Shown here one piece after another: positions 20,438 through 57,578 of a stretch of 64,000 nucleotides of DNA; position 1 is the first letter of the stretch, and every line of letters starts with the position of its first letter. The notes beneath the pieces are model-generated. The model saw only the letters and a list, made by a program, of their open reading frames with translations. It was not told the DNA's origin and ran no database searches. Source of the DNA: Acidobacteriota bacterium (lineage in GTDB: Bacteria; Acidobacteriota; Vicinamibacteria; Vicinamibacterales; 2-12-FULL-66-21); assembly GCA_016184105.1 (NCBI GenBank), contig JACPDI010000013.1, positions 1 through 64,000 on the forward strand. Direction: 5' to 3'. Made by a program: the position numbers and the translations under genes.

Positions 20438-20500
20438 AATAAGTGGGACAGTCACACTTTCCTTGATGTTGCTACGGAAAGTGTGACTGTCCCACTTATT
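20438..20500. repeat. REP-like palindrome, family 1, copy 2
   Basis: Perfect 25-base inverted repeat (arms 20438-20462 and 20476-20500) with a 13-base loop. It has the same core GGACAGTCACACTTTCC as copies 1 and 3, and a family variant TGGGA in place of GGGGGA. It begins at the stop of the TonB receptor, and its right end supplies the TAA that terminates the minus-strand lipoprotein. Confidence 0.85.
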
Positions 20501-20810
20501 GCGTCCCGCCCCCCAGCTCGTACTGCAGGCTGTGCCCGAGCTCGTGTGCCAGCGATGCGACGCGCGCCGGCCATTCCTGCCGCGCGATTGCGGCCTCATT
20601 GAGAAGGACCCGCCGGTATCCGCCCACCGCGTCACGCTCGAGAACGGACGCGATGCTCGCGATCGCGACGTCGTACTCGCGGACGCTCTCGACATGAGTC
20701 ACCGGCCGTACGGAATCGTCCGGCGTGTACAGCAGGCGAGGTCCCGCGGGAGCGGCGCAGCCGGCGAGCGCCACCGGGAGCAGGAGGCGCGGAATCAGCA
20801 ACCGGTGCAT
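20496..20810 (-). pseudogene. lipoprotein with HELGH metal motif, cut short by a palindrome
   Basis: A 104-residue product with a lipoprotein signal (lipobox LAGC, Cys at residue 18) that would anchor it to the envelope. The only recognisable motif is AHELGHSLQYELGGGTQ at the very C-terminus, where HELGH matches the zinc-binding HExxH of metallopeptidases. In a working enzyme the fold and the third ligand would continue beyond this point. Here the reading frame meets the arm of palindrome copy 2, and its TAA is the stop codon. I infer that insertion of the element, with loss of the downstream part, truncated the gene. Confidence 0.6.
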
Positions 20811-31827: not shown

Positions 31828-33836
31828 GGCGCCGGACCTTTCAAGCCGCCGTTGTCATCGTCGCCCTCGGCGCGCTCGCGGGCGCGGCCGGGCAGAAGCC
31901 GCTGACGACTGCCGACCTCCACCGGCTGCGGTCGGTGGGCGACGTGCAGCTGTCGCCCGACGGCAGGCGCGTGGCATACACGGTCTACAAGAGCGACAGG
32001 CCTGGCCGGCCGTACCCGCAGATCTGGGTGGCGCAGGTGGAGAGCGGTGAACCGTCGCTCGTCGGCGATGGGGCGGATCCGAGATGGTCGTCCGACGGAC
32101 ACGCTCTCGCGTACGCCGGCTGGGACAACGGGAGTGCCGGCATCGACGTCGTCAAGGTCGAGGGCCTCGGGTCGAAGGCCGAAAAGACCGAGGCCGATCG
32201 CGTCGCCCACGTTTCAGGCACCAACCATCCCCTGCCGTCGGCAGGGGAGGAGATCGCCTGGTCCCCCGATGGGAAGCAGATCGCCTTCGTGTCGTCGACG
32301 CCCGGCCCCGAGCAGGACGCGAACGGCGATCCGATGGTGATCACGCGATATCTCTACAAACCGACCGCGTCCGAGGGAAGCACCCGGTTCAACGACAATC
32401 GCCGGCTGCACATCTTCATCGTGGACGTGGCCACGAAGAAGGTGCGACAGCTGACCGAGGGACGTTTCTACGAGCACTCCATCGACTGGTCGCCGAAAGG
32501 TGACGAGATCCTGTTCGTCTCCAACCGGGAGCGCGATCCCGATCGCGCGTTCAACTACGACGTCTTCGCCGTCCGGGTGAGCGACGGCGCCGTGCGCCGC
32601 CTGACGGAGACGAAAAGCGCGGAGTACTTTCCGCGCTGGTCGCCAGACGGATCGCGCATCGCGTTGCTCGGCACGAAGCGCGACCTGACGTCATCCGAGA
32701 CGACGATGGAGGACACGCACGTCTGGATGATGAACGCGGACGGGAGCGGCCGGCACGAGGTCGGCGCGCAGATCGACAACCGGCAGGGGGCCCCGAGGTG
32801 GGTCGACGGCCAGGTGGCGTTCACGGTGCAGGAGCGGGGTGCGACGCACCTCTACCTGGAGGGTCGCCCGGTCGACGCGGGCGGGTCGGTGGGAGCCTGG
32901 TCGATTGCCGGCGACGTCATCGCGGCTGCCGTCACCACGCGCGATCGCCCCGCGGATCTGATCGCGTGCCGCCGCCGGTCGTCAGACCGGCGCCCGGCAT
33001 GCTCGGACAGGCGGGTCCTCACGGACCACAATGCGTTCCTTCACGATCGCGCCATCGCCGGCGTGGAGTCGTTCACGGTCAGGAGCTTCGACGGTCTCGA
33101 TGTCGAGGCGTTCGTCACGAGGCCGGCGGCGTTCGATCCCGCGCGGAAGTACCCGCTCGTTACGGTCATCCATGGCGGCCCGCATGCGCAGCAGGGGGCG
33201 TCATTCAATGCGAAGGCGCAGATCTATGCCGGGGCCGGTTTCGCGTCGCTGATGGTGAACTATCGGGGCTCCACGGGCTACGGGCAGAAATTTGCCGACG
33301 CGATCTTCGGCGACCAGAACGGAGGCGAGGCGAAGGACGTACTGGCCGGCGTGAGCGCGGCCGTTGCGAGATACCCGTGGATCGATCGCACGGCGCTACT
33401 CGTCGAGGGCACGAGTTACGGCGGGCAGCTCGCCAACTGGCTCATCACGCAGACCGACCGGTTCAAGGCCGCGGTGCCCATCGCGGGCATTGCGAACCTC
33501 GTGAGCTTCAACTACATGGCGTACTACCACGACTACCTCGCCGTGGAGTTCGGGTCGTACCCGCACGAGAAGGGGTTGATCGACAAGCTGTGGGAGCGGT
33601 CGCCGATTCGCTACGCGAAGGACGTGAAGACGCCAACGCTCTTCATCCATGGTGAGAATGACAACGACGTCCCCATCGCGGAGGCGGAGCAATTCTTCAT
33701 CGCGCTGAAAGATGCGGGCGTGGAGACGGTGATGGTGCGCTATCCGCGCGAGGGCCACGGCCTGCGCGAAACCGGTCACGTCGCGGACGCCATCGAGCGT
33801 GCGCTGGCGTGGTACACGGCACACCTAAAACCCTGA
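31824..33836 (+). CDS. S9-family prolyl-oligopeptidase-like serine peptidase
   Basis: An exported peptidase of 670 residues (signal peptide FQAAVVIVALGALAGAAGQ). The N-terminal beta-propeller shows repeating W-S-x-D/K-G units (AWSPDGKQIAFVS, DWSPKGDEILFVSNR, RWSPDGSRIALLG). The alpha/beta-hydrolase domain has HGGPHAQQG (oxyanion region), the nucleophile in EGTSYGGQLANWL (Ser about 531), the Asp in FIHGENDNDVP and the His in YPREGHGLRE. It probably trims peptides in the periplasm. The ATG overlaps the TGA of the hemQ gene, giving translational coupling of two unrelated functions. Confidence 0.9.
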   Translation: MRRRTFQAAVVIVALGALAGAAGQKPLTTADLHRLRSVGDVQLSPDGRRVAYTVYKSDRPGRPYPQIWVAQVESGEPSLVGDGADPRWSSDGHALAYAGWDNGSAGIDVVKVEGLGSKAEKTEADRVAHVSGTNHPLPSAGEEIAWSPDGKQIAFVSSTPGPEQDANGDPMVITRYLYKPTASEGSTRFNDNRRLHIFIVDVATKKVRQLTEGRFYEHSIDWSPKGDEILFVSNRERDPDRAFNYDVFAVRVSDGAVRRLTETKSAEYFPRWSPDGSRIALLGTKRDLTSSETTMEDTHVWMMNADGSGRHEVGAQIDNRQGAPRWVDGQVAFTVQERGATHLYLEGRPVDAGGSVGAWSIAGDVIAAAVTTRDRPADLIACRRRSSDRRPACSDRRVLTDHNAFLHDRAIAGVESFTVRSFDGLDVEAFVTRPAAFDPARKYPLVTVIHGGPHAQQGASFNAKAQIYAGAGFASLMVNYRGSTGYGQKFADAIFGDQNGGEAKDVLAGVSAAVARYPWIDRTALLVEGTSYGGQLANWLITQTDRFKAAVPIAGIANLVSFNYMAYYHDYLAVEFGSYPHEKGLIDKLWERSPIRYAKDVKTPTLFIHGENDNDVPIAEAEQFFIALKDAGVETVMVRYPREGHGLRETGHVADAIERALAWYTAHLKP

Positions 33837-33856
33837 ACCCTGAGCCCTTAACCCTG
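33829..33856. repeat. CCCTGAA-type minisatellite
   Basis: Array of AACCCTG/AGCCCTT-like heptamers starting inside the S9 peptidase stop region and running into the intergenic space. It is the same unit as at 2779-2804 and around 8013-8302. Confidence 0.5.
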
Positions 33857-34479: not shown

Positions 34480-34539
34480 TAAGGGGGACAGTCACACTTT
34501 CCTGGGCCGCTGCCTCGGAAAGTGTGACTGTCCCCCTTA
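34480..34539. repeat. REP-like palindrome, family 1, copy 3
   Basis: Perfect 23-base inverted repeat (34480-34502 and 34517-34539) with a 14-base loop almost identical to that of copy 1 (GGGCCGCTGC then T/C and TC). It ends 20 bases before the GTG of the candidate selenoprotein. That leaves no room for a promoter in between, so any transcript of that gene passes through it or starts inside it. Confidence 0.85.
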
Positions 34540-34559: not shown

Positions 34560-35210
34560 GTGGCCCTTCTCGCCGACGCCGATCTGAAGCAGCTCCAGGA
34601 AACCTTCGCCGAGCTCAAGAACCCCGTAAAGATCGTCTTCTTCACGCAGACGCTCAACTGCGAGACCTGCGATATCGCGAAGCAGGTGCTCAGCGAAGTC
34701 GTGCGCATCAACGACAAGATCACGCTCGAGGAGCGCAATTTCCTCCTCGAGAAGGATGAGGCCGCGCGCCTCGGCATCGACCGCGTGCCCGCCGTTGCGG
34801 TGCTCGGCGATAACGGCACGGACCACGGCATCCGTTTCTTCGGCGCGCCGCACGGCTACGAATTTTCGTCGCTGCTCGAATCGATCCTGCTGACGGGGGG
34901 CGCCGACGAAGTGGGCCTGAGCGAGGACAGCATGGCGCTGCTCGCGTCACTCAAAGAGCCGGTTCACATCCAGGTGTTCGTGACACCGACCTGACCGCAC
35001 TGTCCCCGGGCCGTGAGCCTGGCGATGCGGATGGCGATGCTCAGTGACAAGGTGACGATGGCGTCGGTCGGCGCGGCGGAGTTTCCAGACGTCGTGCAGC
35101 GCTACCGCATCACGGGCGTGCCAAAGACGGTCGTCAACGGGAAGGTCGAGCTGCTTGGCGCGCAGCCGGAAGACGTGTTCGTGGCCGACGCCCTGCGCCC
35201 GTTCGTTTGA
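34560..35210 (+). CDS. two-domain glutaredoxin-like (PDO-type) protein, candidate selenoprotein with in-frame TGA
   Basis: Read through one TGA, the frame encodes 216 residues: two thioredoxin-fold units like archaeal and bacterial protein disulfide oxidoreductases. Unit 1 has FFTQTLNCETCDIAKQVL (Cys 34 and 37) and the cis-Pro loop DRVPAVAVLGD. Unit 2 has QVFVTPT, then TGA at codon 145, then PHCPRAVSLAM, and its cis-Pro loop GVPKTVVNGK. In known relatives this site reads VFVTPTCPYCP, so TGA stands exactly at the first active-site cysteine. The frame continues unbroken to 35210 with full family conservation. A SECIS-like hairpin follows the TGA. GTG 34560 is the only in-frame start after an upstream stop. 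No Sec machinery genes are in this window. The alternative is a point mutation or base-call error from TGT/TGC. Confidence 0.75.
34992..35030 (+). promoter_or_regulatory. TGA codon with SECIS-like stem-loop
   Basis: TGA (34992-34994) is followed 11 bases later by the helix CCGGGC (35006-35011) paired with GCCTGG (35017-35022, one G-U pair). The five-base loop CGTGA has a G at position two. A lower helix, CCGCA (34995-34999) with TGCGG (35026-35030), closes the structure right after the TGA. Spacing, apical loop size and the loop G match bacterial SECIS elements such as that of formate dehydrogenase H. The fold was drawn by eye. Confidence 0.55.
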
Positions 35211-35283
35211 GGCACCAGGCACGAGGCACCAGGTTGCGCCTCGTGCGTCAGCCTTCCGACTCGCGCCTGATGACTCGTGCCTA
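35208..35283. repeat. GAGGCACCAG/GCACGAG repeat region
   Basis: Direct repeats of AGGCACCAGGC and AGGCACGAG at the stop of the glutaredoxin-like gene, followed by inverted copies (CGCCTCGTGC, GACTCGTGCCTAG) at the end of the convergent typA gene. The inverted arms can form a hairpin between the two convergent genes and may end both transcripts. Confidence 0.45.
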
Positions 35284-37128
35284 GTCGGTCTTCCGAGGCC
35301 TCATGTTCGCCTGCAGGATCTTCTTCCGCAGGCGAATACTCTTCGGCGTCACCTCGACCAGCTCATCGTCGTTGATGAACTCGATCGCCTGCTCGAGGCC
35401 GAGCTTGCGCGGCGGGATGAGCCGGATGGCTTCGTCGGCCGTCGACGCGCGCATGTTCGTCTGCTTCTTTTCCTTCGTGACGTTCACGTCCAGATCGTTC
35501 GTGCGCGAGTTCTCGCCAACGAGCATGCCTTCATAGACCTGCGTCGCGGGATCGATGAAGATCTCGCCGCGCTCCTGCAGGTTCGAGAGCGCGTACGCGG
35601 TGGCCACTCCCGCGCGGTCCGCGACCAGCGCTCCGGTGGGACGCGCCGGGATCGCGCCGTGCCACGGCTCCCAGCCCGAGAAGATGTGGTTCATGATCCC
35701 GGTGCCTCTGGTTTCCGTGAGGAACTGCGAGCGGAAGCCGATCAGGCCGCGCGCCGGAATGCGGAATTCGAGCCGCACGCGGCCGCTGCCGTGATTGATC
35801 ATCTTGGTCATGACGCCGCGGCGCGTCCCGACCTGCGCGATGACGACGCCCTGGAACTCGTCGGCCACGTCGATCACCAGCTCCTCGACCGGCTCGACGC
35901 GCGTGCCGCCGATGTCGCGGGTGACGATCTCCGGCCGCGACACCTGGAGCTCGTACCCCTCGCGCCGCATCATCTCGATCAGGATTGACAGCTGCAGCTC
36001 GCCGCGCCCGAGCACCTTCATCTGTTCCGGCGTGTCGGTCGGCTCCACGCGAATCGACACGTTGCCGAGCAGTTCGCGATCGAGCCGGTCCTTCAGGTTG
36101 CGCGACGTGACGAACTGCCCCTCGCGGCCGGCGAGCGGCGAGGTGTTCACGCCGAAGATCATCGAAACGGTCGGCTCGTCGATGGCCGTTGTCGGGATGG
36201 GCGTCGCGTGCTCGGGGTCCGCCACGGTTTCGCCGATCGTGATGTCTTCAATCCCAGCCAGGCAGACAATGTCGCCGGCGGCGGCCGATTCGATGTCGAC
36301 GCGCTTCAGCCCCTCGAACGCGAACAGCTTGGTGACACGCGTCTGCTGCTGCGCTCCCTCGAGCTTGCAGACGGTGATCGCGTCGCCGATCGTCACCGTG
36401 CCGTTGAAGATGCGGCCGATCGCGATCCGCCCGAGATAGTCGCTGGAGTCGAGGTTGGCCACGAGCATCTGGAGCGGCGCGGACGGATCGCCGTGTGGCG
36501 CCGGCACGCTCCGGAGAACGGCGTCAAATAACGGGCGGAGGTCCGTCCCCGGCGTGTCGAGCGCAACCGAGGCGGTTCCCGCGCGCGCGCTCGTGTACAG
36601 CACCGGAAAATCGAGCTGATCCTCGGTGGCGTCGAGATCGATGAAGAGGTCGTACACCTCGTTCAGCACTTCCTGCGGCCGGGCGTCAGGCCGATCGATC
36701 TTGTTGATGACGACGATCGGCGCCAGGCGGCGCTCGAGCGCCTTGCGGAGCACGAACCGCGTTTGCGGCAGCGGCCCCTCGGAGGCATCGACCAGCAGCA
36801 GCACGCCGTCCACCATCGACAGCGTGCGCTCCACCTCGCCGCCAAAATCCGCGTGCCCCGGCGTGTCCACGATGTTGATGAGGAGACCCTCGTCCGTCTC
36901 GGGATCGCGGTAGTGCACCGCCGTGTTCTTCGCCAGGATGGTGATGCCCCGCTCGCGTTCGAGCTCGTTGCTGTCCATCGCGCGCTCGGCCACGCGCTCG
37001 TTGGCGCGGAAGACCCCGCTCTGGTGCAGCATCGCGTCCACCAGCGTCGTCTTGCCATGGTCCACGTGGGCCACGATGGCGACGTTCCGGCGCAGCGGAT
37101 TGGCGATCTGCGGGCTTCGAGGGGTCAT
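35281..37128 (-). CDS. typA: TypA/BipA ribosome-associated GTPase
   Basis: Translation-factor GTPase of 615 residues that binds 70S ribosomes and assists 50S assembly and stress adaptation. G1 is AHVDHGKTT, the switch I region contains [13 protein letters not shown]3 is [11 protein letters not shown] and G4 is [10 protein letters not shown]. Domain III/V segments and the BipA-specific C-terminal domain are complete ([25 protein letters not shown]-like [20 protein letters not shown], ending [13 protein letters not shown]). The start at the second ATG (37128) has GGTGAG six bases upstream; the first ATG is at 37134. Confidence 0.95.
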
Positions 37129-37209: not shown

Positions 37210-37818
37210 ATGGATGACGCTCAGCTCATCACGCGAGCCGCGGCTGGGGACAGTGCCGCCTTCATGACCCTGGTGGAGCGTCACCGGGGGCTGGTGTATC
37301 GGGTGGCGTTCCAGTATGCCGGCAACCACTTCGACGCGGACGACATTGCGCAGGACGTGTTCCTCAAGGTGCACCGGTCCCTCGCCTCGTTCCGGCACGA
37401 CGCGCAATTCGCGTCCTGGCTTTATCGGATCGCGATGAACGCGTGCATCGATCACGGCCGGCGGCGGACCCCGGTGACGTCGCTTGACGCCGCGCGGGAA
37501 GACGAACGACCGTACGACCCGGTTGCCGCGGACCCCGGACCGGAGCAGCACGTGTACGCCGGCGAGGTCCGGCGCGCCGTCGAGGCGGCAGTGGACAAGC
37601 TGCCGCCGCAGCAGCGGGTGATCTTCGCCATGCGCCATTTCGAAGGATTGAAGCTCACCGACATCGCTGACGCGCTCGGCGTCGCGGAGGGGACCGTGAA
37701 GCGGCAGCTCCACTCCGCGGTGCACCGCCTGCGCCACGCGCTGCGCGGCGTGCGCGGCGTGCGCGCCGGGCGGACGCACGAGGCGGCCGCGCACCGGCCC
37801 GGAGTGGCGAACTCATGA
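37210..37818 (+). CDS. ECF-type RNA polymerase sigma factor (RpoE-like)
   Basis: A 202-residue sigma factor. Region 2 covers AAAGDSAAFMTLVERHRGLV and the core-binding/-10 element NHFDADDIAQDVFLKVHRSL, followed by FASWLYRIAMNACIDHGRRR. Region 4 covers DKLPPQQRVIFAMRHFEGLK and DIADALGVAEGTVKRQLHSA, a clear HTH for -35 recognition. Its stop overlaps the start of the zinc-finger anti-sigma gene (ATGA), the standard pairing, so its activity is probably held by that protein until an envelope or redox signal. A 75-base gap separates it from the divergent typA gene. Confidence 0.9.
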   Translation: MDDAQLITRAAAGDSAAFMTLVERHRGLVYRVAFQYAGNHFDADDIAQDVFLKVHRSLASFRHDAQFASWLYRIAMNACIDHGRRRTPVTSLDAAREDERPYDPVAADPGPEQHVYAGEVRRAVEAAVDKLPPQQRVIFAMRHFEGLKLTDIADALGVAEGTVKRQLHSAVHRLRHALRGVRGVRAGRTHEAAAHRPGVANS

Positions 37819-38588
37819 CGATCTGCCCGCGCGCCGCTGGCGAGACGCCCACGCTGTATTTCTACGGCGAGCTCGATCCCGCCGCCCGCAACGATTTCGA
37901 GCGACACCTCGCCACGTGCGCGGCGTGCGCGGCCGCGGTCGGCGAATTGGAACAGGTGCGCGCGGCGCTCGATGATCGCGCATCTGTCACGCGCACGGAT
38001 GCCGAGTGGGCCGACTTCATGCGGCGCCTCGGCGCCGCCACGTGCGACGTGCGACGTGCCACGGTGCGACGTGCCACGGTGCCACGTGCGGACGTCAGCA
38101 CGTCGCACGTGGCACGTCGCACGTGGCACGTGACGTGGCACGTGATGACGTGGTTCGCTCTGGCTGCCACCTTGCTCGTCGGCGTCGCGCTCGGGTTGGT
38201 CTGGCAGCCGCGAAGCCTGCCGCCGCGCCAGGCGACCGTGAACGGGACGGCAGGCGACGCGGCGCTCGAGGCGGCGGCGGCGCGGCACTTCGAGCGCGCG
38301 AAGATCGTCCTGCTCGGCTTGGTCATGAAAGACACGGAGCGCGCGAGCGCCGCAGACTGGGAGTACGAGCGCGCGCTGGCGGCATCGCTGCTGCCCGAGA
38401 CGCGCCTGTTCCGCCTGTCGGCCGCCGATCGCGGCGACGCGCGGCTCGCGCGGCTCCTCGGCGATCTCGAGACCGTGCTGCTGCAGGCGTCAATGGCGTC
38501 CGACGCCGACCCGCCGGAACTGCAGCGCCTCCAGCGCATCATCCGCGGGCGCGACCTCATCGTCCGCATGGGCTTCAGGGAGTTATAG
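37815..38588 (+). CDS. zinc-finger anti-sigma factor, membrane-anchored
   Basis: A 257-residue partner of the adjacent sigma factor. The N-terminal anti-sigma domain carries the ZAS zinc motif in RHLATCAACAAAV (His-x3-Cys-x2-Cys). A single membrane helix (TWFALAATLLVGVALGLVW, about 112-130) separates it from a periplasmic, helical C-terminal domain. The cytoplasmic linker before the helix (about 76-110) is encoded by an inverted minisatellite and reads as low-complexity HV/TW/RR repeats. It probably sequesters the sigma factor at the membrane. Confidence 0.8.
   Translation: MTICPRAAGETPTLYFYGELDPAARNDFERHLATCAACAAAVGELEQVRAALDDRASVTRTDAEWADFMRRLGAATCDVRRATVRRATVPRADVSTSHVARRTWHVTWHVMTWFALAATLLVGVALGLVWQPRSLPPRQATVNGTAGDAALEAAAARHFERAKIVLLGLVMKDTERASAADWEYERALAASLLPETRLFRLSAADRGDARLARLLGDLETVLLQASMASDADPPELQRLQRIIRGRDLIVRMGFREL
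38038..38153. repeat. inverted minisatellite inside the anti-sigma gene
   Basis: About 115 bases made of the units GCGACGTGCCACG and its complement CGTGGCACGTCGC in tandem. The left half (38038-38090) and right half (38097-38150) can pair into a long imperfect hairpin. It lies entirely in frame in the anti-sigma gene between the zinc domain and the membrane helix. Confidence 0.75.
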
Positions 38589-47649: not shown

Positions 47650-47886
47650 GTGTTCATTCTTGATTCGCTCCTGATCGGCGGGATCCGGTTCGTGCTCGAC
47701 AAGATCGCGGCCGCCGCCGACGAGGAGCTGAACGACGAGGCCGCGCTTCGCGAGCAGCTGCTGACCGCACAGATGCGGGTCGAGCTGGGCGAGATGAGCG
47801 AGCGGGAGTTCGCCTCGTTCGAAGCCACCATCCTCGAACGCCTCCGTGACATCCGCGAAGCGACCTTCGGCGGTGACGAAACGTGA
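47650..47886 (+). CDS. gvpG: gas vesicle protein GvpG
   Basis: A 78-residue protein starting at GTG. MFILDSLLIGGIRFVLDKIA followed by an acidic helical part (MSEREFASFEATILERLRDI) matches GvpG, a small accessory protein needed for vesicle assembly in haloarchaea and streptomycetes. It begins ten bases after the gvpF/L stop, and the next gene overlaps its last 14 bases. Its TGA is one base before the left arm of the family-2 palindrome. Confidence 0.85.
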   Translation: MFILDSLLIGGIRFVLDKIAAAADEELNDEAALREQLLTAQMRVELGEMSEREFASFEATILERLRDIREATFGGDET

Positions 47887-49930
47887 AAAAAGGGGTCGGG
47901 AGCCTTTTTACGAAAAACGTAAAAAGGCTCCCGACCCCTTTTTCTGGCGCCTGTTCGGAGGCAAAGGGGGCGTCGGCAAGACGACGTGCGCCGCCGCGTG
48001 GGCGGTGGCGCGCGCCAAAGCCGGCCTCCGCGTGCTGGCGGTGTCCGTGGACCCGGCGCACTCGCTCGGCGACGCGCTGGGCAGGCGTCTCGGCGCAAAG
48101 CCGGCCCGCGTGGCCATCGGGCGCGGAATGCTCGCGGCGCTCGAGGTCGATGCCGGGTCCGCCGTCGTCGCGTGGCTCAAGGAACGCCGGCCCGCGTTCG
48201 CGGCGCTGATCGAGCGCGGCACGCTCCTCGATCACGAGGACGCCGCCCGCCTGATGAAGCTGCCGCTGCCGGGACTCGACGAGCTTGCCGCGTTTCTCGC
48301 GATGACCTCGTTCGAGCGTGCCGGTGAGTACGACGAGATCGTCGTGGATACCGCCCCCACTGGGCACACCTTCCGGCTGCTCGAGGTCCCACGTCTCGTG
48401 CACGCCGTGGCCGACCTGTTCGCGGCCATGCACGGCCGCCACGCGATGGTCGCGCGCGCGCTGGGAGGATCGGTCGGCGCCGATCCGCTGGTCGAGGAGC
48501 TGCGCCGCGACGCGGGCGATGTCGAGCGCCGGCTGCACGACGCGTCGCAGTGCGCGATCTCGTGGGTCACGCTCGCCGAGCCCGTGACGATCCAGGAAAC
48601 CATCGACGGGATCCGATGGCTTCGCGGAGGCGCCTTTCCGCTGGATGCGCTCATCGTCAACCGCCTGACCCCGACGCCGCGGGGCGGCTGCCCCCAGTGC
48701 CGTGCCCGCGCGGAGTACGAGCAGGACGCGCTGGCGCCCCTCGCCGCACACGTGAGATCGCTTCGCGTGTCGCTCGTCGAGGATCAGGGGGCCGAGCCGC
48801 GTGGCGTTCCCGCGCTCCGGCGGATCGCGGCGGATCTCATGGCGGACCGTTCCGGCGTCCGGCTCGGCGCGACCAGAGCGAAGCGGGGGAGCGGCGCATC
48901 GGCCGCCGCGATCCGTCGCGACGCGGTCGAACCGGCACCCGCCGTGTTTGACGTACCCGCGTTTACGAGGCTGGTGCTGTTCGGAGGAAAGGGGGGCGTC
49001 GGCAAGACCACGTGCGCCGCGGCGAGTGCCATGAGCCTGGCGGCTGCAGAACCCAGGCGGCAGGTCAGGCTCATCTCCACCGATCCGGCGCCATCGCTCG
49101 GCGACGTGCTCGGCATGAAGATCGGCAACACCTGGCGGCCGGTGCCCGGCCGCTGGCATCTGCACGTTCGCGAGCTTGACGCCTCGACGGTGTTCGACGA
49201 ATACCGCCAGCGGTACCAGGGAGCCATCGCCGACTTCTTCGACCGTCTTGCCGCCGGATCCCCGTTTGACGCGACCGCGGATCGAGCCGTGTTCGAGCGG
49301 CTGTTCGACCTCGCACCGCCCGGCATCGACGAACTCGTCGCGCTGCTCGCCGTCGCGGACGTCTTGCGCGAGGGAGCCGACGATCTGCTCGTGGTGGACA
49401 CCGCGCCGACCGGGCACACGGTGCGGCTGCTGGGCATGCAGGCCGACGTCCAGCAGTGGGTCGCCCTGCTGATGCAGCTCGTGATCAAGTATCGGCTTGC
49501 GGCCCGAGCCGAATCGCTTGCCCACGACCTCGTGCATCTCTCGCGGGGTCTCCGGGAGTTTCGAGCGCTGCTCGGCGACCGCACGCGCGCACGGTTTGTG
49601 ACCGTCGTGCGCCCCGCCGTGCTGCCGCGGCTGGAGACCGAGCGGCTGCTCGACCAGCTGCAGCGCATGAACGTGCCGGCGCCCACGGTCATCGTCAACG
49701 GGGAGAGCAGCGGTGGGTGCGCGGCCTGTCGCCGGCGCGCCGAGGCGGAGCAGCGAGAGGTCGCCCGCATCGAGCGGCTGTGCGGCGCCTCGCGCCCCCC
49801 TTGCGATATCATGCACGCGCCGCTTCGGATTCCGCCGCCACACGGCGTCCAGGAGCTGCTCGAGTGGAGCGACTCGTGGCGAACCGGGCACACCGCCTCA
49901 GGCCGCCGCGGCGCGGCGCCTACATCATGA
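47873..49930 (+). CDS. tandem Get3/ArsA-type ATPase in the gas vesicle operon
   Basis: A soluble 685-residue protein with two fused Get3/ArsA domains. Each has the deviant Walker A FGGKGGVGKTT (about 29-38 and 371-380), the family motif DTAPTGHT followed by F/VRLL, and a CxxC pair (CPQC about 273, CAAC about 616). Get3 uses such a CxxC to bind the zinc that holds its dimer, so the protein looks more like a targeting chaperone than an arsenite pump ATPase. No arsB, arsC or arsR is present. GTG 47873 overlaps gvpG; an ATG at 47846 is also in frame. Between the start and the first P-loop, about 19 residues (RGREPFYEKRKKAPDPFF) are encoded by a palindrome. I infer a role in handling hydrophobic Gvp proteins. 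Confidence 0.8.
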   Translation: MTKREKRGREPFYEKRKKAPDPFFWRLFGGKGGVGKTTCAAAWAVARAKAGLRVLAVSVDPAHSLGDALGRRLGAKPARVAIGRGMLAALEVDAGSAVVAWLKERRPAFAALIERGTLLDHEDAARLMKLPLPGLDELAAFLAMTSFERAGEYDEIVVDTAPTGHTFRLLEVPRLVHAVADLFAAMHGRHAMVARALGGSVGADPLVEELRRDAGDVERRLHDASQCAISWVTLAEPVTIQETIDGIRWLRGGAFPLDALIVNRLTPTPRGGCPQCRARAEYEQDALAPLAAHVRSLRVSLVEDQGAEPRGVPALRRIAADLMADRSGVRLGATRAKRGSGASAAAIRRDAVEPAPAVFDVPAFTRLVLFGGKGGVGKTTCAAASAMSLAAAEPRRQVRLISTDPAPSLGDVLGMKIGNTWRPVPGRWHLHVRELDASTVFDEYRQRYQGAIADFFDRLAAGSPFDATADRAVFERLFDLAPPGIDELVALLAVADVLREGADDLLVVDTAPTGHTVRLLGMQADVQQWVALLMQLVIKYRLAARAESLAHDLVHLSRGLREFRALLGDRTRARFVTVVRPAVLPRLETERLLDQLQRMNVPAPTVIVNGESSGGCAACRRRAEAEQREVARIERLCGASRPPCDIMHAPLRIPPPHGVQELLEWSDSWRTGHTASGRRGAAPTS
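47887..47943. repeat. REP-like palindrome, family 2, in frame
   Basis: Perfect 26-base inverted repeat (47887-47912 and 47918-47943) with a five-base AAAAA loop. The arm core is GGGGTCGGGAGCCTTTTT. Its sequence is unrelated to the family-1 palindromes. It begins right after the gvpG stop and is open in the frame of the Get3-like gene. The transcript would carry a very stable hairpin between the start codon and the first P-loop. Confidence 0.9.
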
Positions 49931-50716: not shown

Positions 50717-50989
50717 GTGCCGCGAACCCGACCCTGGAAAGAGGCGCAGCGCCGGCTGTCGGCGCCCGAGGCATCGCGGAGCCGGCCGAAGACGCTCGTG
50801 CAGTCGCTGCAGCACGAAGACGCCACGCTGCTCGACGCCGTAGACAACCTGCTCAATCGAGGCGTGGTGATCGACGCGGAGCTGATCTTGGCGCTTGCCG
50901 ATGTCGACCTGGTCCATCTGCGCCTGTCGCTTCTGCTGAGCGCCGCGGATCGCGTGCTCTCGCCGGCGCGGCGCCGCCGGAGGCGATGA
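50717..50989 (+). CDS. gas vesicle GvpA-family minor protein (GvpJ/GvpS-like)
   Basis: A 90-residue protein with a GTG start one base after the preceding stop. Residues about 34-78 carry the GvpA core: ATLLDAVDNLLNRGVVIDAE, then LILALADVDLVHLRLSLLLS. The 'ADVDLVHLRLSLLL' version of the second strand belongs to the minor homologues GvpJ/GvpS rather than to GvpA. The C-terminus is basic (ARRRRRR). It overlaps the next gvpF/L gene by four bases. Confidence 0.82.
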   Translation: MPRTRPWKEAQRRLSAPEASRSRPKTLVQSLQHEDATLLDAVDNLLNRGVVIDAELILALADVDLVHLRLSLLLSAADRVLSPARRRRRR

Positions 50990-51648
50990 CGGGGCTCTAC
51001 GTCTATGCGATCGCCGGCCGCGCCATGCGCGTGCGCGCCCGGGGCATCTTCGGGCGGCCGTTGCGTGTCGTACGGGCGGGCCGGCTTTACGTCGTGGTGG
51101 AGACCGCGGCGCGCGCACCACGGCCGACGGTCGCGAAGCTGAAGGCGCAGGGACAGGTCATCGCGCGCCTGGTGCAGTCGGGCGCCGACATCCTGCCGGC
51201 GCGCTTCGGCGCCCACGTCCGCGACGCCGGCGAACTGGCACGCGCGCTGGCAGGCCGGGCCCGGGAACTCTCGCGCGCGCTTCGCCGCGTGCGCGGCTGC
51301 GTGCAGATGACGGTGCGTGTCACGATGGAATCGAACGATCGCGGGATCAGCCATCGTGGGATCGGCACGGATCGAGGAACGCGCTTTCTGCGCGCGCGGG
51401 CGGCGGCCGAAGCCGCCCGGCGCCGCGATCCGATCGTTCGGGCGGTGCGCCGCGCGGCCAGCCCCTATGCGCGGGAGACCCGGATCGAGTGGCGCGGCGA
51501 CGGCGCGAGCGTGTTTCACCTGGTGCCCCGCGCCCGCGCCCTCGCCTACGTGTCGGCGGTCACCCGCGCGATGAAGCGGCGCGGCGCTGCCGCGGCGATC
51601 GCCGGGCCGTGGGCGCCGTTCGCCTTCGTCGAGATCGAGGAGTCATGA
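50986..51648 (+). CDS. gas vesicle protein GvpF/GvpL, third and short copy
   Basis: A 220-residue, arginine-rich GvpF/L protein. It begins MTGLYVYAIAGRAMRVRARG and has the family's 'ADILPARFGAHVRDAGELAR' segment and the closing motif AAIAGPWAPFAFVEIEE. It lies between a GvpA-family gene and gvpK with ATGA overlaps on both sides. Three GvpF/L copies in one operon suggest that they form a hetero-oligomeric assembly complex. Confidence 0.85.
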   Translation: MTGLYVYAIAGRAMRVRARGIFGRPLRVVRAGRLYVVVETAARAPRPTVAKLKAQGQVIARLVQSGADILPARFGAHVRDAGELARALAGRARELSRALRRVRGCVQMTVRVTMESNDRGISHRGIGTDRGTRFLRARAAAEAARRRDPIVRAVRRAASPYARETRIEWRGDGASVFHLVPRARALAYVSAVTRAMKRRGAAAAIAGPWAPFAFVEIEES

Positions 51649-52070
51649 CCGCCAGGCGCAAGTCCAGGACCCCGACAAACCCGAAGGTCACCGCCGCACG
51701 GCCAAAGACGCGGGCCCGGCCGCGGAGGGTCGGCGCCGCCCGGGCCGAAACGAAGGAGATCGAGACCCTCCGCCGGGATCTCGAGCGCGCGGCAGCGCGC
51801 AGCGGCTCGCCGCGGTGGAACGCCAATCCCGATGACGTGCAGCGATCGGTGATGCAGCTCGTGCTCACGCTGGTGGAGTTCATCCGCCGCCTGCTCGAGC
51901 GCCAGGCGATCCGGCGCATGGAGAACCGCACGCTGACGAAAAAGCAAACCGAGGACGTCGGGTTCGCGCTCATGCGCCTGGAGGAGACGATCCAGGATCT
52001 CGCCAGGCAGTTCGATATCGATCCGGAGGAGTTGAATCTGGATTTGGGGGCGGTGGGGAGGCTGATGTAG
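51645..52070 (+). CDS. gvpK: gas vesicle protein GvpK
   Basis: A 141-residue protein, last gene of the operon. The family core is VMQLVLTLVEFIRRLLERQA, then IRRMENRTLTKKQTEDVGFA and LMRLEETIQDLARQFDIDPE, ending in ELNLDLGAVGRLM. GvpK is an accessory protein required for vesicle formation in several species. The N-terminus has a basic, disordered extension of about 45 residues. A minisatellite starts at its stop codon, and the tail of the opposite-strand propeller gene overlaps its last 100 bases. Confidence 0.9.
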   Translation: MTARRKSRTPTNPKVTAARPKTRARPRRVGAARAETKEIETLRRDLERAAARSGSPRWNANPDDVQRSVMQLVLTLVEFIRRLLERQAIRRMENRTLTKKQTEDVGFALMRLEETIQDLARQFDIDPEELNLDLGAVGRLM

Positions 52071-53238
52071 TTCGAGGGGTTCGAGGGGTTCGAGGGGTTC
52101 GAGGTTCGAGGTTCGAGGTTCGGGGTTCGAGAGGTTCAGGAGTTCCCGGTGTGGCCGCTTTTTCGGCCGATCGAGCCCCATTGAACTCGTACAATCCCGG
52201 CGCCACCAGCAGCCTTCCCGCCGGCGAGAATGACAGCGAGACCGGAGCGAGGATGCCCGTCGCGCCCCTGAACTGCACGGTTCGTTTCTTGTCGCCGTAG
52301 CGGTCGTAGACGTACGTGAACGGCGGCATCAGCGAGACCCAGAGATTGCCGTGCGCGTCTGCCGCGGCCGCGCGAACGTTGGGCGTCACGAAGGGCAGGT
52401 CTCCCTCGGGGGACTCCCGTCGCGGCCATCGTGCCGGCAGGTTCGCCACGATCTCGTCCACTTCCGGTCCTTCGACGTGCCGTTCGAAGAGCAGCCGTCC
52501 GTCGCGGTCGTACGCGCGGTACATCGGCACGCCGGTGGAAAACACGAAATAGAACCCGCCGCGTGGATTGACGATGGGCAGGCCGGTGTTCAACGCGAGG
52601 TGCAGGTCGTGGTCCGCTTCATGGCCCGTGCGGCGAAGCTGTCCGAAGGTGCGAAGCGGCGTGCCGGACATGCCGTACTCGGTGATGAGCGATCCCGTTT
52701 CCGGCTGGTTGATGAGCAGCGACCGCCCGGTGTACTGCAGCGATCCCACGCCGTTGACCACCAGGCTTCCCAGCGTCACCCGTATCGCGTTGCGGCCGGG
52801 CAGCGTGAAACCCGTGATGCGGATGCCGTTTGCGTCGAACAGTTGCACGCGCTCGCGAGAATTGGGCGCGTCGGCGACGACAAACGAGCTTTCGGGCTCG
52901 AGATCGAACGCCGACGGCTGCAGGAGGCGCCCTTCCTCGAACCCGATCTGAATGAGCTTGCGCGGCGCGCCCGCCCCGGGATCGATGCCGTACACGGCGT
53001 GGGCGCGGCGATCGAAGACGTAATACCGCCCGGACTTCGCCTGCTGAAACGCGGTGGGCTCCTGGAACGCGCCGGCAATGTGCGCGGGGAGCCCGCCGGT
53101 GGCTGTGAGGGTTTCAACGCGGACGGACGGTTGAAGTGATCCAGGTGCTCTCGGTGCTCCAGGTGCTTTGGGTGCTCCGGGTGCTCCGAGCACCGCGAGC
53201 ACCCCGAGCACCTGGAGCACCTTCAGCACCTGGAGCAC
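51970..53238 (-). CDS. exported NHL/beta-propeller protein with minisatellite-encoded ends
   Basis: A 422-residue protein as read. The core (about residues 40-360) is a beta-propeller: AFQQAKSGRYYVFDRRAHAV, SFVVADAPNSRERVQLFDAN, GGFYFVFSTGVPMYRAYDRD, ADAHGNLWVSLMPPFTYVYD and SLSFSPAGRLLVAPGLYEF. This matches the 6-bladed NHL-type proteins common in Acidobacteriota. The likely GTG start at 53238 (G-run upstream) opens a hydrophobic leader LQVLKVLQVLGVLAVLGAPG encoded by a tandem GTGCTCCAG repeat. The C-terminal ~60 residues (EPRTSNLEPRTPRTPRT and beyond) come from a second minisatellite and overlap gvpK, so the natural C-terminus was probably near 52170. Function unknown. Confidence 0.6.
   Translation of the reverse strand: MLQVLKVLQVLGVLAVLGAPGAPKAPGAPRAPGSLQPSVRVETLTATGGLPAHIAGAFQEPTAFQQAKSGRYYVFDRRAHAVYGIDPGAGAPRKLIQIGFEEGRLLQPSAFDLEPESSFVVADAPNSRERVQLFDANGIRITGFTLPGRNAIRVTLGSLVVNGVGSLQYTGRSLLINQPETGSLITEYGMSGTPLRTFGQLRRTGHEADHDLHLALNTGLPIVNPRGGFYFVFSTGVPMYRAYDRDGRLLFERHVEGPEVDEIVANLPARWPRRESPEGDLPFVTPNVRAAAADAHGNLWVSLMPPFTYVYDRYGDKKRTVQFRGATGILAPVSLSFSPAGRLLVAPGLYEFNGARSAEKAATPGTPEPLEPRTSNLEPRTPRTPRTPRTTSASPPPPNPDSTPPDRYRTAWRDPGSSPPGA
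52070..52145. repeat. GGGGTTCGA minisatellite
   Basis: Tandem nonamers GAGGGGTTC, changing to GAGGTTC heptamers, begin at the gvpK stop and end in the 3' part of the propeller gene on the opposite strand. The array is the junction between two convergent genes. Confidence 0.8.
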
Positions 53239-53245
53239 CTGGCGC
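53140..53245. repeat. inverted GGTGCTCC minisatellite
   Basis: About 100 bases of GGTGCTCNG units (53144-53188) followed by the complementary GAGCACCNN units (53189-53240). The two halves can form a long hairpin. It lies between the E1 dehydrogenase stop and the propeller core, and encodes that protein's N-terminal leader (VLQ/VLK/VLG units) and the following GAP-repeat linker. Confidence 0.8.
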
Positions 53246-53251
53246 CCCCCG

Positions 53252-55390
53252 TCAGTACCGCGCGATCTCTTGAATCGCCTCGAGGACGTCGCTCGACTGC
53301 GGCAGGATCTCTTCCTCGAGATCCGGGCAGTACGCGACCGGCGTATCCATGGCGGCCACGCGCCGGACCGGCGCGTCGAGGTGCTCGAACAGCTCCCCCG
53401 CGATCCGCGCCGCCAGCTCGGCGCCAAAGCCGCACGTCAGCTGATCTTCGTGCGCGATGATGACGCGGTTGGTCTCGCGCACGGCCTTCGCGATGCCGTC
53501 CCAGTCGTACGGGATGATGGTGCGCAGATCGATCACGCGCGCGCTGATGCCGTCCTTCTCCGCCTGCTGGGCGGCGAGCAGAGACCGCTGCACGAGCGCC
53601 CCCCACGTGACGACGGTGACGTCCGTGCCGTCGCGACGCACCGCCCCCTTGCCGAACGGCACCATGTACTCCGCACCCTGATACGGCGCTTTGTTGTACG
53701 TCTGCCGGTACAGATGCTTGTGCTCGAGGAACAGCACGGGATCGTCACAACGAATCGCGGTGCGCAGCAGTCCCCCCGCGTCCTGCGCGTTCGACGGGAA
53801 CACGACCCGCAGGCCCGGGCAGTGCGCGAAGATGCTCTCGCCGCACTGGCTGTGGTACGGCGCACCGCCGCGCAGGTACCCGCCGATCGCCACCCGCACG
53901 ACCGCCGGGCACGAGAACGCGTTGTTGGAGCGATACCGCAGCATCGACATCTCGTCGCGCAGCTGCATCATCGCCGGCCAGATGTAGTCGAAAAACTGGA
54001 TCTCGACCACCGGCTTGATCCCGCGGGTGGCCATGCCGATGGCCCGGCCGACGATGTTGGCCTCGGCGAGCGGCGAATTGAACACGCGCACGCTGCCGAA
54101 CGCCTTCTGCAGCCCGTGCGTGACCTTGAACACCCCGCCCTTGCCCGGGACCTTCGCGGCTGCGCTCTCGCGGCTGCAGTCCGCGACGTCTTCGCCGAAG
54201 ACCACGATCCGGGCGTCACGCGCCATCTCGTCCTTCACCGTGCGGTTGATGGCCGCGACCATCGTGTCCGGCTTCCCCTCGGGCTGCGGCGTGGTGTCGA
54301 ACGCCGGCGACGTGGGATCGACGTCAGGCGAGTACACGTAGAGCGCGGCGGTGTCTTTCGCCGGCCGTGGTGCCGCCATCGCGCGCTCGACGGCCTCGTT
54401 GATCGCCTTCTCGACGTCCTTTGCGATGGTGGCCAGCGCCGCCTCGTCCACCAGTTCCTCGCTCTTGAGGAAGTCCGCGAAGCGCACGATCGGGTCGCGG
54501 CGCGCTTCTTCCGCGCGTTCCTCCGGCGTCTTGTACAGCCGCTCGTCGTCGGAGAGCGAGTGCGAGTACGGCCGGATGACTTTCGCGTGAACGAGCGCCG
54601 GCCCCTTGCGCGCGCGCGCGTACGCGACCGCCTCCTTGTACGCGCGATAGCTCGCCAGCACGTCGGTCCCGTCGGTGCGCACGACCTTCAGGCCGGGAAA
54701 CGACTCGACGAGACGCGAGATGTCGCCGCCGGGTGTCTGCACTTCGACGGGCACGGAGATCGCGTATCCGTTGTCCTCGATCAGGTAAACGACCGGCAGC
54801 TTGCGCGTGCACGCCGTGTTCAGCGACTCCCAGAACTCGCCTTCGCTGGTCGTCCCGTCGCCGAGCGAGACGTACACCACCTCGTCGTCCCGGAAACGGT
54901 CGCGGCGATCGGCGATGCCGTCGATCTTCGAGTAGAGCAGGCCCGCTTCCGCGCAGCCGATCGCCTGGAGGCACTGCGTGCCCGTCGGGCTGGACTGCGA
55001 GACGATGTGGAGGCGTGTGTGGCCCCAGTGCGAGGGCATCTGCCGTCCGCCGGATGAGGGGTCGTCCTTCGCGCCCACGGCCGCCAGGAACATTTCTTCG
55101 GCGGTGACGCCCAGCGTGAGGCACAGCGCGCGATCGCGGTAGTACGGGTAGAACCAGTCGTGACCCGGCTTCAGGTTCATCCCCGCCGCGACGAGGATCG
55201 CCTCGTGGCCGGCGCCGCTGATCTGGAAGAAAATGAGGCTCTGGTTCTTGAGCTGAATCTCCTTGTCGTCGATGCGGCGCGACAGCAGCATCGTCCGATA
55301 GATGCGAAGGAGATCCTCCGGGGAGAGGCCTTCGTAGCGGTCCGTCCCGCTGCGCGCGGTCGCGGCCGGGCCGTTCGTCACTGCCTTCAT
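53252..55390 (-). CDS. fused alpha-beta E1 component of a 2-oxoacid dehydrogenase
   Basis: A thiamine-diphosphate enzyme of 712 residues that would decarboxylate a branched-chain 2-oxoacid or pyruvate/acetoin and pass the acyl group to a lipoyl E2. The alpha half (1-345) has the ThDP motif [18 protein letters not shown] ending in EDNGYAIS, and the phosphorylation-loop-like [16 protein letters not shown]. The beta half (about 370-712) has [60 protein letters not shown] and the C-terminal transketolase-C domain. Both halves, normally separate proteins, are in one chain. ATG 55390 is chosen over 55471. No E2 or E3 gene is adjacent, so the substrate is not settled. Confidence 0.88.
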
Positions 55391-55436
55391 CCAAGTAGTA
55401 TAAGATTTTCCGCGTTCCAGCACGACAGGAGTCCCC

Positions 55437-57578
55437 ATGCGCATGAGCCGTCTTCTGATGGCGCTGGCCATCGTTCTGGCGTGGCCGCGTCCCGTTCCGG
55501 CGCAATCGTCGCCGTTTCTTGCCGAACCGGCCTATCGCGCGCTCGTCAACGAGATTTCGGGTGATATCGCGTACGAACACGTGCGGTGGTTCACCCACTA
55601 CCACCGCCCGATGGGAGGAAGCGAGGGGTACCAGGCGGTCGAGAAGTACGTGTACGACAAGGCCCGGCAGTACGGCCTCGAAGAGGTGCGCATCATCAGG
55701 CTGAAACAGAACGGCCCGAGCTGGAGCCCGCGCGCAAGCGAGCTGTGGCTGATCGAACCGGAGATGCGCCGCCTCGCGTTCAATACCGAGGTGCCGCTGG
55801 CGCTGGCCGACTACAGCCGGCCGGCGAACGTGCCCGCCGCGGAACTCGTCGATATCGGCGAGGGAGCCGCGTCGGACCTCGAAGGGAAAGACCTCGCCGG
55901 CAAGGTGGTGCTGACCTCGGGTCCGGTGTCGCGGGCGATGGAGGACGCGGTGTGGAAGCGCGGCGCGCTTGGCGTCCTCGCGTACTCCACGGCGCGGATG
56001 CCGGACTATCCCGATCAGTACCCGTGGATGCGCGTGCCGGTGGAGAACCGCGACAAGACGAAGCCGGGCACGTGGGCGTTCGTGCTGCAGCCTCGCGAAG
56101 GGGAACGGCTTCGCGCCGAGCTGAAAGCGACGAAACGCCCCTACAAGGTTCGCGCGGCCGTCAACGCCGAGTTCCACAAGGAGTCCTACCAGTCGATCGT
56201 GGAAGGGGTGATCCGCGGCACCGAGATCCACGATCAGGACCTCGTGCTCACCGGCCACCTCCAGGAAGAGATGTTCTCGGCGAACGACGATGCGAGCGGC
56301 TGCGCCAACGTGCTGGAGATCGCCCGCGCGCTCAAGAAGATGGTTGATGAGGGGACGCTGCCGCGGCCGCGCCGCGACATCCGGTTCTGGTGGCTCGACG
56401 AGATCAGCGCGTCCGAGCAGTACTTCGCCGACAACCCCGCGGAGACGAAGCAGCTGCTGGCCAACATCAACCAGGACATGGTTGGCGCGAAGCAATCCGC
56501 CGGAAGCCGCGTGCAGTTCGTGACGCGGCCGCCGCACTCGCGCGCCTCGTACCTGGGTGACGTCATCGAGTCGATCGTCGAGTCGCTCGTCGCCGGCAAC
56601 ACGGCGTTCCTTTCCGCGGGGCAGGCGGCGCAGCTCCGGCAGGGTCCCGACGCGATTCCTGCCACGACCACGAGCGATGCACCGTTCAGCAGGCCCGTGT
56701 TGTCCCGCCTTGGCACGCACGAACGCTACGACGCCCGGGTTGTGCCGTTCCACAACAACACCGACCACCAGGTGTTCAACATGGCCGTCATCGGCGTGCC
56801 TGGCGTCACCTTCACGAACTGGCCCGACCCCTTCATCCATTCGAGTGACGACGACCTGTGGCAGATCGACCCGACGCAGCTGAAGCGCAACGCGGTCGCG
56901 GTCGCGGGTGCGGCGCTCTACCTCGCCAACGCCGGTGACGCGGAGGCGGTCACGCTCGGCACGGAGCTGTACGGGCGCGCCCTCGAGCGGCTGAGCCGCG
57001 ACGCGCGCGTGGCCATGACGATGAACGACTACGCGCGCGGCGCGAACCTGGTGCGACAGGCGGCACGGCGCGAGCGGCGGACCCTCGAGTCGGTCTCACG
57101 GTTTGCCACGCCCGGCGGCGCGGGAGAGCGGGCGCTGAAGGCGCTCATCCAGCAGCTGCCCACCGAGGACAACGCGGAGATGCGGTTGTCCGCGTACGTC
57201 GCCGGCGTGACCGGCACGAAGCCGGCGTCGGCCGCGGCGCCGTCTCCGCGCGAGAAAGAGCTGGCGACCATGGTGCCGTCCATCGCCGTGTCCATCCAGG
57301 AGTACCTCGACACGCGCGCGCAGCTGAAGCGCCCGCCTGCCCTCCACAGCCTGATGGCGTATGAGGTCATGAACTTCGTGGACGGCACGAACACGTATCT
57401 CGACATCTTCCGGGCCGTATCGGCCGAGGCGGACGCCGCCGGCGACTGGTACTACGGCACGGTGACGCTCGAGGACGTCGCGAGCTACCTTGATTCGGCA
57501 AAAGCCGCCGGCATCGTCACCGTGAAGACCGTGCCGTTGCCGGCGCGTAAGACGACGAGCGGAAAGGGCACCCGATGA
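55437..57578 (+). CDS. exported M28-family zinc aminopeptidase with PA domain
   Basis: A 713-residue peptidase with a signal peptide ([18 protein letters not shown]). A protease-associated domain lies at about 120-250 ([20 protein letters not shown]). The catalytic domain has [20 protein letters not shown] (first zinc His and bridging Asp), [18 protein letters not shown] (Glu pair), NINQDMVG (Asp) and [12 protein letters not shown] (late His). These fit M28 co-catalytic zinc enzymes. The C-terminal ~200 residues are helical. It probably releases amino acids from peptides outside the inner membrane. The cupin gene is coupled by an ATGA overlap. Confidence 0.85.

Follow-up and report, generated by a model that had tools for sequence, protein, structure and literature searches.

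A repeat that forms part of a signal peptide already has a precedent in the enterobacterial RU-2/YPAL element, which contributes to the predicted signal peptide of Yersinia YPO1552, unrelated leaders being found in other genera (Delihas 2007, PMC2759123; review PMC2229807). As described there, RU-2 is a MITE-like element of 168 nt with a fixed sequence, whereas at the locus presented here each arm is a tandem run of units of 7-10 nt, and the unit varies from genome to genome. The palindromic elements of Rickettsia, about 100-150 nt long, lie in frame inside protein genes (PMC2229807); these accounts likewise concern fixed sequences within proteins, in contrast to tandem short units standing as a putative leader. 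GGGAATC heptamer arrays of Xanthomonas are dispersed and mostly intergenic, lying near the upstream ORF (Rehm et al. 2015, PMC4692102), and 70 cases in one genome are convergent inverted pairs (PMC4692102). The arrays of this study share with them the dispersal, the short tandem units and the inverted pairing, the unit of our locus occurring at few places in its own genome and at many in the genomes G002 and G033. The Xanthomonas arrays consist of one G-rich unit and were studied for quadruplexes, and the main text of that paper does not mention a signal-peptide role (PMC4692102). No description of array-made signal peptides beyond RU-2, or of such arrays in Acidobacteriota, was found in one open-licence literature library, which does not prove their absence. 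What is new here is that short-unit convergent arrays occur as putative leaders, repeatedly at a single orthologous locus but with varying units, a combination that joins the RU-2 and Xanthomonas kinds of element.

A convergent array between the E1 and propeller genes

Within the 64,000 nt of DNA from an uncultured acidobacterium that were analysed (the window), a quasi-palindrome of 9-nt GGTGCTCNN units in two convergent (head-to-head) arms fills the space that separates a fused E1 gene from an NHL-type beta-propeller gene; the order on the minus strand is E1 gene, array and propeller ORF (Table 1). On the plus strand GGTGCTCNN units run up to 53186 and their reverse complement from 53188. 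TRF returned tandem arrays at 53136-53188 and 53188-53242 with periods of 9/18, and the inverted arms (53136-53186 and 53188-53238), 51 nt each with 1 nt between them, are 84% complementary. The minus-strand RNA of the array folds at -103.6 kcal/mol, compared with -59.8 +/- 4.2 in 200 shuffles, none of which was as low (z = -10.5), confirming that the array is real and beyond chance. The preliminary description had placed it at 53140-53245; its existence stands, and its extent begins 4 nt and ends 3 nt earlier than given there.

Table 1. Features around the array, with positions in the window.
Feature	Position	Strand	Basis
Fused alpha-beta E1 component of 2-oxoacid dehydrogenase, 739 residues	53252..55471	-	Pfam E1_dh, Transket_pyr, Transketolase_C; NCBIfam
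Quasi-palindromic array, 9-nt GGTGCTCNN units	53136..53242	.	Tandem-repeat, inverted-repeat and folding results
First arm on coding strand: in-frame V-L-x repeats; proposed start GTG 53238 and putative hydrophobic leader core	53188..53238	-	12-residue window VLQVLGVLAVLG, mean hydropathy 2.46
Second arm on coding strand: in-frame G-A-P repeats; putative linker behind hydrophobic core	53139..53186	-	Reading frame
Conserved NHL-type beta-propeller domain, exported-type protein	52180..53139	-	Orthologues 46-62% identical; AlphaFold2; PDB NHL matches
Second array, GGTTCGA units, at 3' end of propeller ORF where orthologues have stop	52070..52145	.	Tandem-repeat search

The array has the features of the convergent short-unit tandem arrays of the Xanthomonas type (6-9 nt units, inverted pairs, dispersed). 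The REP class is defined by a single palindrome of 20-40 nt with a GTAG/CGTC tag; neither tag occurs in the array on either strand, and it is a multi-unit palindrome instead. Full-length copies, as expected of a MITE- or RPE-like mobile element, were not seen in the searches made, no promoter-like sites were found in the array region, and no Rfam RNA family matched in 51900-55600.

The propeller ORF has no Pfam match. Its profile matches NHL domains of solved structures as the best PDB matches, and the AlphaFold2 model (mean pLDDT 86, pTM 0.88) is closest to NHL propellers, so the beta-propeller label given in the preliminary description was right; the domain is intact and its conserved residues are present. 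At its 3' end the ORF runs through the GGTTCGA array to 51970, antisense to gvpK (51489-52070, plus strand), and the gas vesicle genes gvpL/F and gvpK adjoin the propeller gene (50986-52070). A second GGTTCGA palindrome lies elsewhere in the genome (L073, 13352-13471), so the idea of a single GGTTCGA array per genome was dropped.

Reading frame and start of translation

The minus-strand frame across the array, RQ-VLQ-VLK-VLQ-VLG-VLA-VL-GAP-GAP-KAP-GAP-RAP-GSLQPSVRVETL, is open throughout and contains the V-L-x and G-A-P readings reported in the preliminary description. It holds in-frame GTG codons at 53238, 53229, 53220, 53211, 53202 and 53193, of which GTG 53238, proposed there as the start, lies 13 nt past the E1 stop. 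The first in-frame ATG, GTG or TTG after the array is GTG 52995, 40 residues into the conserved domain; since there is no start between the array and 52995, translation must begin in or above the array, and a start after the array, which the preliminary description had named as something that would refute its reading, is rejected. The only other upstream start, TTG 53427, is in an open frame, yet it lies within the E1 gene, 176 nt before the E1 stop, and is thought unlikely. An in-frame start codon is present at -12 to +30 nt of the E1 stop in 36 of 65 orthologous loci, which makes a start at +13 ordinary for a propeller gene.

The V-L-x stretch of the array is the sole hydrophobic N-terminal segment of the window's propeller protein. 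Its 12-residue hydropathy maximum of 2.46 (VLQVLGVLAVLG) is the best of the six frames with both region lengths tried, and only one sense frame of the 9-nt array, V-L-x, is strongly hydrophobic, which is the frame used. Behind GTG 53238 the features of a Sec-type signal peptide are found, namely a positive n-region with one Lys and the N-terminal hydrophobic core VLQVLGVLAVLG; the second arm is G-A-P/proline-rich, leaving no clear cleavage site in the c-region. Altogether, it is likely that the array functions as a leader.

The preliminary description had also suggested that length variation in the array could act as a phase-variable switch. This part is not supported, since the 9-nt unit keeps the frame, so that an array with more or fewer units makes the leader longer or shorter and cannot switch it off; phase-variable contingency loci have a unit that is not a multiple of 3, or a promoter repeat. 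Variation in repeat number was seen only between two relatives, L135 and L137.

Leaders at the orthologous loci

A first orthologue search in 60 relatives gave a match in 30 including the window's own genome, with the E1 gene upstream of the propeller in all 30 loci. No relative was returned by a search with the single propeller protein; a profile made from the alignment returned 69 loci, mainly of Acidobacteriota MAGs, which together with the own locus make 70. The E1 stop could be placed in 65 of these, the others (L100, L124, L131, L133 and L154) being mostly cut by contig ends. No congener of the window's organism was found in the genomes of its family. Upstream of the mature part, the own-frame 12-residue hydropathy maximum has a median of 2.44 over 69 loci and falls below 1.5 only in L124, which begins at a contig edge, L154 being without its N-terminus. 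This median, beside the 2.46 of the window, indicates a protein that carries an N-terminal hydrophobic leader almost throughout. The preliminary description had named a conventional leader in homologues as something that would refute its reading. Most homologues do have one, but orthologues with an N-terminus carry their hydrophobic leader at the position of the array and not downstream of an array, which points to replacement and is no argument against the leader.

By reading of the 65 spacers, nine leaders are written wholly or partly by palindromic short-unit arrays of at least six different units, a count that is partly our own reading: GGTGCTC in the window (L031), AAGGCAG/CTGCCTT in L094 and L096, GTGAGAA/TTCTCAC in L108, AAGGAAG and AAAAG types in L109, TGCTGAA/TTCAGCA in L119 and L121, GCAGAG/CTCTGCG in L132, and GGGAGTC/CTTCTCC in L137. 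An array precedes a separate conventional leader in at least six further spacers (L091, L095, L097, L126, L148 and L149). An inverted-repeat score of at least 18 is reached by 16/65 spacers, compared with 2/65 E1 ends of equal length and 0/65 propellers, and at least one of 12 dinucleotide shuffles reaches this score in 6/65 spacers. Array-type hairpins number eight in 9,005 nt of spacer (seven without the window's own) versus three in 348,275 nt from other parts of these 65 loci. This comparison region is mostly coding, which makes the excess look larger than it is relative to other intergenic DNA. Under a strict rule, by which at least 18 of the 36 nt of the most hydrophobic window lie inside detected arms, only 7 of the 19 spacers with strong inverted repeats qualify, L156 and L158 being doubtful and near the shuffle maximum.

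Tandem periodicity over the last 105 nt of the leader is at least 0.7 in 8 of 64 loci (L096, L094, L031, L108, L137, L093, L109 and L149) versus 0/64 in each of three control regions, with codon shuffles of GC-rich leaders hitting 0.7 at least once in ten in 5/64 loci. By our reading the periodicity of L093 is an alanine-codon run, and the degenerate arrays of L119, L121 and L132 fall below the threshold. In nine of ten array-leader loci the frame used is the most hydrophobic one among the three sense frames. Frame choice was not used as proof of a leader role, because heptamer frames give similar peptides (L094, L096) and some leader parts are non-array.

On a quick tree built from 63 propellers, at least six changes are needed to account for the nine array-leader rows, and one clade (L094, L096, L108 and L109; SH-aLRT 98) has array leaders throughout, with three different units. 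Judging from this one clade of a quick tree, the layout seems to be kept as the repeat units change. In the near pair L135/L137, the first 300 residues of the mature part are 96% identical in amino acids and 91% in nucleotides. The two differ in a CTTCTCC-type stretch of 105 nt, in frame and placed behind the leader core and ahead of the mature part, and in a further 30 nt of the first arm.

A dispersed class of arrays

Vicinamibacteria-type Acidobacteriota genomes harbour dispersed intergenic tandem arrays with short units (7-10 nt) in convergent arrangement. The array of the window is a member of this class, which the preliminary description had missed. Three copies of GGTGCTNNN in tandem occur in 10 of 60 genomes, at eight places in the own genome, 141 in G002 and 87 in G033, the reversed control giving none in either G002 or G033; the stricter GGTGCTCNN form was found only in the own genome. 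AAGGCAG arrays are found in 25/60 genomes (127/127 by strand in G002, control 20/27; 75/82 in G036, control 0/0) and TTCAGC arrays in 20/60 (47/39 by strand in G008, control 0/3). Sampled stretches contain three array-type hairpins in 464 kb of the own genome, five in 160 kb of G004, eight in 160 kb of G007, one in 80 kb of G010, two in 158 kb of G036, none in 160 kb of G014 and two in 79 kb of G002. Across 20 stretches picked around array matches, the context is mostly spacers and gene ends.

Several other repeats were observed alongside. The GGTGCTC unit is also present in the own genome at L006, L007, L009 and L010 (about 1450-1550), in apparent coding linkers or gene ends and in differing frames. 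A CACGTGG-type palindromic array (38037-38145) lies in frame within an anti-sigma factor ORF (37671-38585, plus strand), where it precedes a hydrophobic segment, MTWFALAATLLVGVALGLVW, that we read as the membrane helix. REP-like palindromes of the GGGACAGTCACACTTTCC type are found at 99-158, 20436-20502 and 34480-34539, and by our count make up 17 of 25 hairpins in the 464 kb sampled; a second type (GGGGTCGGGAGCC) is found at 47885-47945. Short AACCCTG and AGGCACC arrays stand directly behind apparent gene ends (33829-33856 and 35210-35285), and another gene, in the relative G036, has array arms on either side of its apparent leader (L227, 1816-1940).

Proposed origin of the leader

We propose that an array of this dispersed class supplies the leader of the propeller, with its start at GTG 53238 and putative Sec export, an explanation that we hold to be probable as a whole. 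The array, occupying the E1-propeller spacer, would have come to provide the 5' end of the propeller gene, and translation would most likely start at GTG 53238 by coupling to E1 translation. The first arm would encode the hydrophobic core of a Sec-type signal peptide, M-LQVLK-VLQVLGVLAVLG, and the second a G-A-P linker ahead of the mature propeller, which would then be exported and cleaved.

The very strong hairpin directly after the E1 stop might instead belong to an element acting only as DNA or RNA, for example an intercistronic hairpin with a terminating, slowing or stabilising effect on the E1 transcript, its coding being incidental and the propeller of this genome having lost its leader and being either cytoplasmic or poorly translated. 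Several relatives have the array ahead of a separate leader, and elsewhere in the samples most arrays are found in intergenic DNA or at the ends of genes, both in keeping with such a role. The propeller domain is intact, however, and with no start after the array the protein, if made, must be translated through it; moreover, the hydrophobic frame is the frame used, and no T-run terminator was found at the array. We regard a purely structural role as unlikely on this evidence.

It could also be argued that a selfish palindromic element was inserted in frame by chance, the leader being merely tolerated and its hydrophobicity unselected, since the GGTGCTC unit lies inside coding linkers in several frames elsewhere in the genome (L006, L007, L009 and L010) and another palindromic array is in frame in the anti-sigma factor. 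Against such an accident, which we consider quite improbable, the array here replaces a leader and does not add to one, and leaders stay hydrophobic across units. An assembly artefact, suggested by the mostly metagenome-assembled nature of the genomes, is hardly credible given that the class recurs in many separate assemblies with both strands balanced and that the flanking genes are intact.

Returning to an array that supplies the leader, its recurrence would be understandable if leaders need only charge followed by hydrophobicity, as complementary arms would supply such pairs. Complementary arms pair codons of opposite hydropathy. For L094, L096 and L109, six of six frames give a hydrophilic, net positive first arm and a second arm of positive mean hydropathy, with stops in none of the six frames of L096, two of L094 and four of L109. 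Since 7 leaves a remainder of 1 on division by 3, a perfect heptamer array encodes one and the same heptapeptide whichever of its three frames is read. The charged-then-hydrophobic pattern is not general, being reversed in L091 and weak or absent in L097, L119, L121 and L126. That some purine-first heptamer palindromes are charged and then hydrophobic in all six frames may explain how readily leaders form. Tentatively, convergent short-unit arrays might thus be a recurring generator of signal peptides, purine-first heptamer palindromes giving a leader in every frame and both directions, and the E1-propeller spacer might be a hot spot where leaders are born, lengthened and rewritten while export is kept.

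Implications

To judge from the sequences compared here, export signals may arise repeatedly from simple repetitive DNA, with different repeats in related bacteria. If true, this would provide a concrete, testable route from non-coding repetitive DNA to a functional signal for export, along with natural replicates, several of them at a single orthologous locus, a near pair that differs by an in-frame length change, and a simple codon-level reason why palindromic arrays suit leaders. It would also mean that annotators may miss or mis-start leaders that adjoin such arrays.
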